Shown here: positions 8,483 to 54,508 of the stretch, piece after piece | How the letters are laid out: every line of letters begins with the position of its first letter | How positions within the stretch are numbered: position 1 is the first letter of the stretch | Assembly (NCBI GenBank): GCA_016214955.1 | Contig: JACRMN010000017.1 | Location: forward strand, 186,001 to 250,000 | DNA length: 64,000 nt | Origin: Deltaproteobacteria bacterium | GTDB lineage: Bacteria > Myxococcota > Myxococcia > Myxococcales > Anaeromyxobacteraceae | Direction of reading: 5' to 3' | Translations under genes and position numbers: made by a program | The notes under the pieces: model-generated | Told to the model about the DNA's origin: nothing | Seen by the model: only the letters and a program-made list of their open reading frames with translations | Database searches by the model: none

Positions 8483-12679
<4,197 letters not shown>

Positions 12680-12763: not shown

Positions 12764-14074
12764 ATGCACCCGCTCGCCCTCGCACTCCTCGTCGCCGCAG
12801 CCCCGGCCGCCGGGAAGCTCCCCTTCGTCCACGACGACTACCCGCGGGCCCTGGCCGAGGCCCGGGCGCGGCAGGTGCCCATCGTCGTCGACGTCTGGAC
12901 CCCCTGGTGACACACCTGTCGCTTCATGGAGGCGCACGTCCTCTCCGACGCGCACCTCGTGAAGCAGGCCGGGCGGTTCGTCTGGCTGAGCGTCGATGCC
13001 GAGAAGGAGGCCAACGCCGCCTTCCTGGAGAAGTTCCCCGTCAACGGCTACCCCACCTTCCTGTTCCTCGATCCGGAGGGTGAGACGCCGCTCCTGCGCT
13101 GGGCCGGCTCGGCCGGCGTGAAGCAGTTCGAGCGGCTCCTCGACGACGCCCTCGTCGCCCGGGCCGCGGCCTCCGGCGACGGCCCCGAGGCGGCGCTGGC
13201 CCGCGCCGACAGGGCCGAGGCCGCCGGCAAGGGGGAGGAGGCGCTGGCCGGCTACCGCGAGGCGCTGGCGCAGGGCGGGCCGGGCTGGGCGCGGCGGCCG
13301 CGCGCCGTCGAGTCGCTGGTGGTGGCGCTCACCGCCGCCGACGGCAGGGAGCAGGACTGCGCCGGCGCCGCGCTGGCCGAGGCGGCGACGCTGCCGGCCG
13401 GCTCCTCGCGCGCCTCGGCGCTGGCCAACGGCCTCTCCTGCGCCCTGGGCGCCGAGGGAGAGCCCGGGTGGCGCGCGCCCGCGATCGCGAAGCTGGAGCC
13501 GCTGGTGCGCGAGGCTGCGCGCTACCCGGGCCTGCTGGCCGACGACCGGGCCTGGATCCTCCAGGTGCTGGCCGACGCCCGCGAGCAGGCCGGCGACGCC
13601 CGCGGCGCGCGGCGCGGCTACCAGGCGCTCTGGGACTTCGTGGCCGCCGAGGGGAAGCGCACCCGCAGCGCCGAGCTGCGGGCCTCCCTCGACTCCTTCC
13701 GCGTGGCCGCGGCCCTCAAGCTGGAGAAGCCGCAGCTCGCCATCGGCCCGCTGCGCGCCTCGGAGAAGGCGCTGCCCGACGACTACAACCCGCCGCACCG
13801 GCTGGCGGTGCTCTACCGCGAGGCCAAGCGCTACCCCGAGGCCCTGGCCGCCGCCGACCGCGCGCTCTCCCGCGCCTACGGGCCGCGCAAGCTCCGGGTC
13901 TTCGACGTGAAGGCCTCGGTGCTGGAGCGGCAGGGCGACCAGGCCGGCCTGGCGGCCGCGCTCGCGGAGGCGGTGGCCCACGGCGAGGCGCTGCCCGAGG
14001 CGCAGCGCAGGAGCGCCGGCAAGCTCCTGGAGCGGATGCGGAGCCGGCTGGCGAAGGCCCGCGGGGAGGGGTAG
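12764..14074 (+). CDS. Exported thioredoxin-fold selenoprotein candidate (UHTC motif)
   Basis: A 436-residue protein read through one in-frame TGA at 12908-12910 (codon 49). A short signal peptide (residues 1-17) leads to a thioredoxin fold: VVDVWTPW, then TGA, then HTC, then the cis-proline segment NGYPTFLFLDPEG. TGA replaces exactly the first cysteine of a CxxC redox site, so the natural reading is selenocysteine, giving UHTC. The reading frame is maintained for 388 codons beyond the TGA with normal high-GC codon use. The rest (about 130-436) is helical and TPR-like. It probably acts as a periplasmic thiol oxidoreductase. The alternative is a nonsense mutation or sequencing error at the one position where Sec is expected. 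No SelA, SelB or SelD gene is in the window. Confidence 0.78.
12920..12934 (+). other. Candidate bacterial SECIS hairpin
   Basis: Nine bases after the TGA, CGCTTCATGGAGGCG can fold into a 5-6 bp stem (one G-U pair) with a small apical loop containing G residues. In E. coli fdhF the apical SECIS stem-loop begins 11 nt after the UGA, so the position is right. Sequence identity with known SECIS elements is not expected, because the hairpin also codes protein. Confidence 0.5.
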
Positions 14075-14080
14075 CGGCGC

Positions 14081-14848
14081 TCAGCCGAAGAGGTGGGCCA
14101 GCGCCGCGGCGGCGAAGACGCCAGGGAGCAGGTTGCCCACCGGCAGGCGCTTCAGCCCCAGCAGGTCGAGGCCGATGGCGGCGATGAGCAGGCCGCCCGA
14201 GGCGGTGAGCGTCGAGAGCACCGGGAGCGTGAGGAAGCGGGCCACGCTGGCGGCCGCCAGCGTGATGCCGCCCTGGTAGACGGCGAGCGAGAGGCCCGAG
14301 AGCCCCACGCCGGCGCCCAGCGTGGTGGCGAGCACGACCGACGAGATGCCGTCGAGCAGCGCCTTCACGTAGAGCACCTCCGGCTGGCCGGCGGCGTCCT
14401 GGATGGAGCCGATGACGGCCATGGCGCCCACGCAGTAGAGCAGCGAGGCGGTGACGAACCCCTCGACGAGGTCGTGGCCGCCCTCGCTCCCGGGCGCGGT
14501 CCCGCGGCGAACCGCGCCCAGCCGCTGCGCCACCTCCTGCATCCGCTGGCCGAACCGCTCCAGCCGCCTCTCCAGCTGGAGCAGCTCTCCCAGCACGCCG
14601 CCCAGCACCAGGCCGCCGATCACCACCAGCGGGTTGGGGTGGTAGGGCAGGGGGCCGGTCCAGCCCACCTTGGCCGGGTCGATGGAGGGCGCGATGGCCA
14701 TCTGCAGGCCGAGGCCGAGGACGGTGAGGCCGATGGCGGCCATGGCGGTGGCGCGGATGCGCTCGGGGATGAGGCGGCCGAAGAGCAGCCCCACCGCCGA
14801 GCCCGCCACCACCGCCGCCACGTTCACGATGGTTCCGATGCCGGGCAT
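14081..14848 (-). CDS. DUF554 family membrane protein
   Basis: A 255-residue inner-membrane protein with about seven hydrophobic segments, starting MPGIGTIVNVAAVVAGSAVG. GLLFGRLIP, the glycine-rich GGLVLGGVLGELL and the GFVTASLLYCVGAMAVIGS block are the hallmarks of DUF554 (YqgA/YdfK-type) proteins, whose transport role is unproven. The start at 14848 was preferred to an upstream frame because it begins at the conserved first helix. The stop is 6 bp from the convergent stop of the selenoprotein gene. Confidence 0.85.
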   Translation of the reverse strand: MPGIGTIVNVAAVVAGSAVGLLFGRLIPERIRATAMAAIGLTVLGLGLQMAIAPSIDPAKVGWTGPLPYHPNPLVVIGGLVLGGVLGELLQLERRLERFGQRMQEVAQRLGAVRRGTAPGSEGGHDLVEGFVTASLLYCVGAMAVIGSIQDAAGQPEVLYVKALLDGISSVVLATTLGAGVGLSGLSLAVYQGGITLAAASVARFLTLPVLSTLTASGGLLIAAIGLDLLGLKRLPVGNLLPGVFAAAALAHLFG

Positions 14849-14941
14849 GAGGGGGCGGAAACTACTCCCGCGCCAGGATGCGCGCCACCGTGGAGGCGCA
14901 CGCCGGGAGCCCGGCACCCGGTGCTGCGCCCCCCGTTCGGC

Positions 14942-51999: not shown

Positions 52000-53043
52000 T
52001 CAGGCCGCCTTCCGCCCGAAGGGCGTGGAGGCGAAGATGGCCTCCTCCTCCTCGGTCATGTCGGAGGCCACGCTGGCGAAGAGCGGGGTGGAGAGGTAGC
52101 GCTCGCCGGTGTCGGGGAGCATGCAGAGGATGTTCGAGCCCCGGGGCGCGTCGCGGGCCACGGCCAGCGCACCGGCCATGGTGGCGCCCGAGGTGATGCC
52201 CACGAAGATGCCCTCCCGCGCCGCCAGCTCCTGGCTGCAGCGCAGGGCGTCGGGGCCGGCGATAGGCAGCACCTGGTGGATGCGGCTGCGGTCCACGTCG
52301 CCGGCGATCTTGGGGATGAAGTCCGGCGTCCAGCCCTGCATGGGATGGGGCTTCCAGGCCGGGTGGCCGGTGGCCGCCGAGCCGTCTGGGTTGCGCGCCT
52401 GCGGCGCGCCGCTGCCGAGGAGCGGCGCGTCGGCCGGCTCGCAGACGACGATCCGGGTGGCCGGTGACTCGCGCGCCAGCACCCGCGAGACGCCGTTGAG
52501 CGTGCCGCCGGTGCCGTACCCGACGACGAAGTAGTCGAGCCGCTCGCCGCGGAAGTCCTCCATGATCTCCCGCGCGGTGGTGCGTTCGTGGATGTCGGGG
52601 TTGGCCGGGTTCTCGAACTGCCGCGCGTAGAACCAGCCGTGCTCCCGCGCCAGCTCCACCGCCTTCTGCACCATGCCGGTGGCCCGCAGCGGTGCCGGCG
52701 TCAGCACCACCCGGGCGCCGAGGAAGCGCATCAAACGCCGCCGCTCGACGCTGAAGCTCTCCGCCATCACCACCACCAGCGGGTGGCCCGTGGCGGCGCA
52801 CACCATCGCCAGGCCGATGCCGGTGTTGCCGCTCGTCGCCTCGACCACCGTCTGCCCGGGCCGGAGCTCGCCCGAGGCCTCCGCCGCCCGGATGATCCCC
52901 AGCGCCAGGCGGTCCTTGATCGACCCCAGCGGGTTGAACGCCTCGACCTTCGCCCACAGGTTCACGTGCTCGGGGGCGAGGCGGTTGATCCGCACCACCG
53001 GCGTGTGCCCCACCGTACCCAGGATGCTCTCGTGTCGTGCCAT
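52000..53043 (-). CDS. cysK: Cysteine synthase family PLP enzyme (CysK-like)
   Basis: A 347-residue fold-type II enzyme. The PLP lysine is Lys43 (NPLGSIKDR), the phosphate-binding loop SGNTG is at 71-75 and GYGTGGTLNGVSR follows. It should make cysteine from O-acetylserine and sulfide, though related enzymes use other beta-replacement partners. The MAESFSVERRRLMRFLG segment differs from classical CysK. GGAAAGG lies about 7 bp before the ATG. First gene of a two-gene operon with the decarboxylase. Confidence 0.87.
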   Translation of the reverse strand: MARHESILGTVGHTPVVRINRLAPEHVNLWAKVEAFNPLGSIKDRLALGIIRAAEASGELRPGQTVVEATSGNTGIGLAMVCAATGHPLVVVMAESFSVERRRLMRFLGARVVLTPAPLRATGMVQKAVELAREHGWFYARQFENPANPDIHERTTAREIMEDFRGERLDYFVVGYGTGGTLNGVSRVLARESPATRIVVCEPADAPLLGSGAPQARNPDGSAATGHPAWKPHPMQGWTPDFIPKIAGDVDRSRIHQVLPIAGPDALRCSQELAAREGIFVGITSGATMAGALAVARDAPRGSNILCMLPDTGERYLSTPLFASVASDMTEEEEAIFASTPFGRKAA

Positions 53044-53176
53044 GGTTTGCCTTTCCGGCTGCTCGCAGCCTTCGAGGCGCCTTGTAGCGCCACGGCGCCG
53101 GCGCAGCCTGGAGGTGGGCTGGAGATTTCCTGGAGATGCGCGCCCGCGGCCCCGCGGGGGGCGCCGGGCGGCCCGG

Positions 53177-54508
53177 CTACCGGCCCGGGGGCAGCCCGCG
53201 CACCAGGGCCCGGGACCAGCGGCCGGCGTCGCGGAGCCGGGTGGAGAGCAGCCGCACCAGCGCCTGCTCGGCGGCCGGATCGCCGGCGCGCGCCAGCGCC
53301 GGCAGGTCCACCGGCTCGCGGGTATCGTCGAAGGTGTAGGCCGGATCGGCGACGTGGCGGGCCGGGAAGGTGCGGAGCACCGCCTCGTCGAGCGGGTCGG
53401 CGGCGGCGTGCCCGGCGCGGGCCACGCCGGCGCGGACGTCGGCGTCTGCGAGCGGCGCGGTCCCATCGCCGGAGGTTTCGCGCAGCGCGGCCAGGAGCGG
53501 GTCGCCGGCGCGCGACGCGGCGATGGCGTCGCGGAGCCTGCGGCGCGTGTAGGACTCGGCCGCGAGGTGGCGGTTGGAGGCGAGGGCGATGGCCGCGGCG
53601 CGCGGCCCGGGGAAGCCCACGGCGCCGAGGAGCTGGAGCCAGGCCACCCGCGCCAGGCCCACGCCCGGCACGGCGCGGGCGTGGTACGGCTGCGCCAGGT
53701 CCTGCAGGTAGTGGAGGGCGAAGCCGGTGAAGCGCCAGCCCCAGTAGGCGTGGCCGGTGGCGAAGGCGTGGGCCGCCAGCGCGCGGAAGAGGTGGATGCG
53801 CACCTCGGGGAAGGTGCGCCGGAGCTGGGGCGCGGCCCGGTAGGCCAGCCAGGGCTCGTGGAAGAAGCCCATGTGCATGGGCGCCTGGCTGGAGAACTCC
53901 AGGGCGGGGTTACCGAAGGGCTGCGGGCCGAGGCCGTAGCGGGCGCCCCAGGCGGTGCCGTTGTCCTCCCAGATGCCGAGGTCGAGGCCGTGGTCGGGCT
54001 CGTCGGCGGCGGTGGCCACCACCTCCAGCGCCGGCACCTCCTCCCCGTCGGCCAGGGCAACGAAGGTGGCCGCGTCGGGGCCGGACCGGACCAGCGTCAC
54101 CGCGGAGGGAGGGAGCGCCGCGGCGCCCGGCGGGAGCGGCGCGCCGGGCGCGAGCTGCCGGAAGAGCGGGAGCGGCATGGCCGGGTGAACGCGGAGGGCG
54201 GCGAGGAAGCGGGCGCGCAGCTCGCCCGCGGGGCCGGCGGCGCGGAAGGCGAGGGCGGCGGGGAGCGGCGGCCAGGCCGGCACGTGCTCGCGGAGCCAGG
54301 GCTCCTCGCCGGCCAGCAGCGCCTCGAGCCGGGCCCCCTCGGCGGCCAGGAAGGCCTCGAGCGGCTCGGCGCGCACCCGGGCGCCCAGCGCGGGCAGCGA
54401 GGCCAGCGACTCGCGGGTGACGATGGCGTGGTCGTCCCAGGCGCGCGCCCGCGGGGCGAGGAGCGCGGTGAGGAGGAGCGGAGCGGCGAGGCGTGCGGTG
54501 CGGGTCAT
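53177..54508 (-). CDS. Exported P1-nuclease/phospholipase C-like protein
   Basis: A 443-residue protein with a signal peptide ending at RARA, so mature protein starts with Trp (WDDHAIVTRESL). In zinc-dependent phospholipase C and S1/P1 nucleases the N-terminal Trp is a zinc ligand. FALHYLQDLAQPYHAR carries further His/Asp residues and HAFATGHAYWGW others. The overall assignment is by these motifs and is moderate; a long middle region is unassigned. It would release phosphate compounds outside the cytoplasm. Confidence 0.62.
   Translation of the reverse strand: MTRTARLAAPLLLTALLAPRARAWDDHAIVTRESLASLPALGARVRAEPLEAFLAAEGARLEALLAGEEPWLREHVPAWPPLPAALAFRAAGPAGELRARFLAALRVHPAMPLPLFRQLAPGAPLPPGAAALPPSAVTLVRSGPDAATFVALADGEEVPALEVVATAADEPDHGLDLGIWEDNGTAWGARYGLGPQPFGNPALEFSSQAPMHMGFFHEPWLAYRAAPQLRRTFPEVRIHLFRALAAHAFATGHAYWGWRFTGFALHYLQDLAQPYHARAVPGVGLARVAWLQLLGAVGFPGPRAAAIALASNRHLAAESYTRRRLRDAIAASRAGDPLLAALRETSGDGTAPLADADVRAGVARAGHAAADPLDEAVLRTFPARHVADPAYTFDDTREPVDLPALARAGDPAAEQALVRLLSTRLRDAGRWSRALVRGLPPGR

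Follow-up and report, generated by a model that had tools for sequence, protein, structure and literature searches.

The window, a stretch of 64,000 nucleotides from a contig of an Anaeromyxobacteraceae genome, carries on its forward strand a thioredoxin-like gene whose reading frame is interrupted by one TGA codon. This gene stands by itself, flanked by a divergent Lhr-type helicase gene (8483-12679, minus strand) and a convergent DUF554 gene (14081-14917, minus strand). Lhr also adjoins the Anaeromyxobacter soli copy, and the neighbors of other copies are RlmL-like, GGDEF, flavin oxidoreductase, or fumarase genes; no constant redox-partner neighbor was found among the neighborhoods of the window and the other copies compared. 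Further TGA-flanked frames are listed within the window. The features of the gene are as follows.

12764..14074, plus strand: whole gene of the predicted selenoprotein, 436 amino acids with selenocysteine (Sec) as residue 49 and a TAG stop at 14072 (from translation and orthologues)
12764..12814, plus strand: likely cleavable signal peptide, residues 1-17, MHPLALALLVAAAPAAG (inferred from N-termini)
12815..13168, plus strand: thioredoxin-fold domain, DsbD-gamma-like, approximately residues 18-135 (from Pfam, alignment, and structure model)
12908..12910, plus strand: TGA, almost certainly read as Sec49, residue one of UHTC (from translation and codon alignment of homologues)
12922..12964, plus strand: predicted SECIS-like mRNA hairpin; it begins 11 nt past the TGA, and a 4-bp stem closes its apical loop at 12941-12946
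13175..14071, plus strand: TPR-type alpha-solenoid tail, approximately residues 138-436 (from weak Pfam matches and structure model)

Translation of 12764-14074 agrees with an earlier note on this DNA, which had described the frame as open except for one codon: the sole internal stop is the TGA at 12908-12910, in the context VDVWTPW-U-HTC, and the frame runs on to give 436 residues and TAG. The coding pattern persists on either side of the TGA, with G+C at the first, second, and third codon positions of 0.83, 0.50, and 0.96 upstream and 0.80, 0.55, and 0.98 downstream, as the note had claimed in finding codon use undecayed. Its statement that thioredoxin sequence continues past the TGA is borne out by Pfam Thioredoxin_7 (PF13899), which covers residues 23-104 with 48.8 bits against a cut-off of 27 when the TGA is read as Cys; two further thioredoxin Pfam families also score above cut-off.

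Homologues were taken from 60 related genomes and from a scan of public genomes that added 80 named loci. Full-length matches from the same genus or family in the 60 related genomes have exactly one internal stop each, always TGA, and it falls in a single alignment column where other families of the order have Cys. Over 110 homologous loci, which are not 110 independent genomes because some genomes were sampled in both sets, the codon in column 49 is TGA in 42, TGC in 52, TGT in 16, and never anything else. The Cys homologues that the note had named as a check therefore exist, and UHTC aligns to them at the first position of the thioredoxin redox motif, where the note had placed the TGA; with TGA in the homologues of the same genus and family that span the column and Cys in other homologues, this placement is far beyond chance, again as the note held. 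No TGA locus has a second stop before its own end. The protein is conserved downstream of the TGA, and dN/dS is about 0.1 to 0.3 in most close pairs; ratios indicating weaker purifying selection occur in L017/L018 (dN 0.27 versus dS 0.37) and L041/L042 (0.20 versus 0.39), where dS is kept low because GC3 is near 0.98. Plasmids gave only distant thioredoxin-domain matches.

The source genome encodes all four components of the selenocysteine machinery that the note had proposed to look for: tRNA-Sec (74.9 bits, also called as tRNA-SeC by ARAGORN), SelB (310 bits, joined), SelA (514 bits, joined), and SelD (391 bits), the last with its own TGA in HGAGUACK. The genes selB and selA (L009, L127, and L128; contig C12 of the source genome, G000, 52126-54048 and 63381-64829) are both on the window's own contig, separated by about 10 kb and situated about 135 kb upstream of the seleno-thioredoxin gene. 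Another likely selenoprotein of this genome is a frame of the formate dehydrogenase family (L135; G000:C3:238594-239367) whose RVUHGPTV motif contains a TGA. Among the genomes checked, tRNA-Sec was found in 19 of the 19 with the UGA form versus 15 of the 21 with the Cys form, the remaining 6 having no match at the same threshold. SelB was found in 18 of the 19 UGA-form genomes, and the exception is an 81% complete genome.

A SECIS-like hairpin specific to the UGA forms is predicted just downstream of the codon, with its apical loop about 30 to 36 nt past the TGA. The lower stem is not in the same register in all lineages, which leaves only 6 pairs in an RNAalifold consensus of all 31 distinct UGA forms; we therefore compared the fold of each sequence with those of 300 synonymous-codon versions. 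The mean z score was -1.67 (more stable) for the 31 UGA forms versus -0.05 for 61 Cys forms (Mann-Whitney p = 3e-9, a value that overstates independence because the sequences are related). In 27 of the 31 UGA forms versus 5 of the 61 Cys forms, the predicted structure has one loop, with columns 33-40 or 34-39 as its closing pair. Every UGA form retains column pairs 31-42 and 32-41, and substitutions on both sides are seen at pairs 30-43 and 31-42. No curated Rfam family matches the hairpin at gathering or permissive thresholds. The apical loop of the Escherichia coli SECIS carries GG; no obvious GG is present here.

These results bear on three other explanations of the TGA. It is one base away from TGC and TGT, so that a nonsense mutation or a miscalled Cys codon would be enough to produce it, and many of the other TGA copies come from draft metagenome-assembled genomes (MAGs); two fragmentary MAG copies also bear the TGA, and one of them (L152) goes out of frame further on. 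However, at least 19 of the searched genomes, single-contig ones among them, and 42 loci have the TGA at this exact codon, with no other internal stop and with conservation and codon pattern persisting downstream. Sequencing error is in effect excluded because independent TGA copies occur in dozens of genomes, and we give the pseudogene or error reading hardly any weight. Only slightly less improbable is a pair of genes, in which the TGA would end a short exported peptide and the ATG at 12926 (M55), 15 nt past the TGA, would start a second protein; this ATG does open a 382-amino-acid open reading frame (ORF). With such a split, the break in the thioredoxin fold would fall at the active-site helix and part the two redox residues, the Cys orthologues are single continuous ORFs, and a UGA-specific hairpin would be left without a reason to exist.

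Readthrough that inserts a standard amino acid, Cys or Trp, instead of Sec is equally improbable. UGA followed by C is a context permissive to readthrough, and C follows the UGA in 36 of the 42 loci. Against this, UGA also serves as an ordinary stop in the same family and in the source genome, the recoded UGA alternates with Cys codons only, every UGA-form genome tested has tRNA-Sec, and the hairpin is there. Recoding as selenocysteine, which the note had proposed, is strongly supported by the Cys homologues, the Sec machinery, and the SECIS-like hairpin, and the internal TGA is almost certainly read as selenocysteine in the active site of what appears from its sequence to be an exported redox protein. 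The computed UGA at a Cys position, hairpin, machinery, orthology, and fold are, we are highly confident, best explained as a whole by a gene that encodes an exported selenoprotein with a UHTC thioredoxin domain and a TPR solenoid, Sec49 being inserted through SelB and the downstream hairpin.

Export, also claimed in the note, fits the N-termini of the protein and its homologues, as judged by inspection; the homologues have clearer signal peptides than this protein, for example MKRLVIASLLLIASAAQA-K. In the thioredoxin domain, residue 49 (Sec or Cys), residue 52, and P97 at the cis-Pro position are invariant in 48 sequences. An AlphaFold2 model from the 48-sequence alignment, with U49 modeled as Cys, has a pLDDT of 95 and a pTM of 0.91. 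In this model, and by Foldseek too, residues 15-137 or so resemble DsbD-gamma and thioredoxins (Z about 15); the nearest solved relatives by sequence are a putative disulfide isomerase and DsbD. Residues 137-436 resemble TPR solenoids, such as the LGN TPR domain (VIA Z 18.4, rmsd 5.1, 285 residues), so that the long TPR-like tail of the earlier description is recovered as a solenoid in the model. The repeats of this tail are divergent in sequence: no Pfam TPR profile scored above cut-off on it, with TPR_12 reaching 19.4 bits of 30.1 and the others weak.

Sec forms were found in Anaeromyxobacteraceae, other Myxococcota, Acidobacteriota, and Candidatus Eisenbacteria, at least three phyla. A 98-sequence tree, computed with the Sec residue masked and with many poorly supported forks, requires three Sec/Cys state changes in either direction. 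One Sec clade comprises Anaeromyxobacteraceae and allies, including one Acidobacteria MAG, and another comprises Acidobacteriota, Candidatus Eisenbacteria, and one deltaproteobacterial MAG. The third occurrence is a single sequence, L071, within the Cys clade of Myxococcaceae and Archangiaceae, possibly through a recent Sec/Cys switch or as a surviving ancestral state. L071 (5920-7269, a MAG record) is a TGA form with a lipobox-like N-terminus amid that clade. In Myxococcaceae, Cys forms predominate and are often apparent lipoproteins. Since a simple pattern for a lipobox-like motif matched 35 of 68 Cys forms versus 2 of 42 Sec forms (L062 and L071), export seems to be retained across the family while anchoring differs. 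In the tree, Myxococcus sequences surround a Myxococcus-type Cys homologue from a record titled Comamonas sp. (L126, 5920-7272); that assembly is likely mislabeled or contaminated.

One single-contig genome (G019), which we take to be Anaeromyxobacter dehalogenans 2CP-C, carries an orthologue; of the matches to two thioredoxin profiles in that genome, it alone has an internal TGA. A 2006 survey counted 11 selenoproteins in A. dehalogenans, two of them termed thioredoxin (PMC1794560). Because of the orthologue in that genome, the gene may be one of those two, counted there without its architecture described in the part available. The Sec-thioredoxins (PF00085, UxxC), including the A. dehalogenans pair, share with the protein the UxxC active site and a UGA with a downstream SECIS; the present protein, in contrast, is Thioredoxin_7/DsbD-gamma-like, is probably exported, and has a solenoid of about 300 residues, a contrast with the class as named in the available part of the survey and not with any 2006 sequence or architecture (PMC1794560). 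The thiol:disulfide interchange selenoprotein (PF13098, UxxC) belongs to a related Pfam family, and PF13098 scores above cut-off here too, but no TPR tail is mentioned for it in the inventory that lists it (PMC13188914). The DsbD C-terminal (gamma) domain (1uc7 and 2fwe) agrees in fold and in the position of the active site (Z about 14.9 for 111 to 115 residues, about 27% identity); unlike DsbD, the protein has no membrane domain, has Sec in place of the first Cys, and has an added TPR tail, and the whole-DsbD model (NCBIfam PRK00293) stays under cut-off with 47 bits of 330. The Trx7/PDZ selenoprotein (NF041199) and TsoB (NF045694) are likewise thioredoxin-fold selenoproteins with a second domain, but the former combines CxxU with PDZ and the latter is a rhodanese/DsbD fusion. 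Their models gave 15.2 bits of 300 and 47.5 of 805, both far below cut-off, and no NCBIfam selenoprotein model scored above cut-off on the Trx-TPR protein.

A 2026 inventory of 119 families and subfamilies of selenoproteins names no thioredoxin-TPR selenoprotein, and neither TPR nor tetratricopeptide occurs in its text (PMC13188914). In the literature, subscription papers apart, we found no description of an exported selenoprotein of this architecture. The suggestion that it is undescribed is thus only partly supported: the architecture appears to be undescribed, but the Sec-thioredoxins as a kind are known and were already counted in Anaeromyxobacter in the 2006 survey (PMC1794560).

In the mechanism that we propose, SelB with Sec-tRNA(Sec) would bind the hairpin just 3' of the UGA and place selenocysteine at residue 49, and translation would then run up to the TAG codon at 14072. 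This product would be exported and fold into a DsbD-gamma-like thioredoxin domain with the UHTC site, followed by the TPR solenoid. It would most likely act as a reductase through U49 and C52: the U49 selenolate would attack disulfides or other oxidized thiols of periplasmic clients, and the resolving C52 would form a Se-S bond with U49. A reductant would restore the enzyme, conceivably the DsbD/CcdA-type membrane donor typical of such systems, and the TPR tail might hold clients or a partner.

More broadly, we see about an even chance that the family is a widespread, unnamed class of exported selenoproteins, in which bacteria of Myxococcota, Acidobacteriota, and Candidatus Eisenbacteria would use a UxxC thioredoxin on a TPR scaffold as a selenol-based reductase of the periplasm, and Sec and Cys would have switched repeatedly within Myxococcota, with L071 in a Cys lipoprotein clade as one case. 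Under the standard code, every genome with the TGA form seems to hold a truncated or split gene that has lost its active-site residue. The family adds a selenoprotein to Acidobacteriota and Candidatus Eisenbacteria genomes. It also offers natural pairs of Sec and Cys forms in related bacteria, some of them cultured (Anaeromyxobacter versus Myxococcus), so that what an exported reductase gains from Sec is directly testable.
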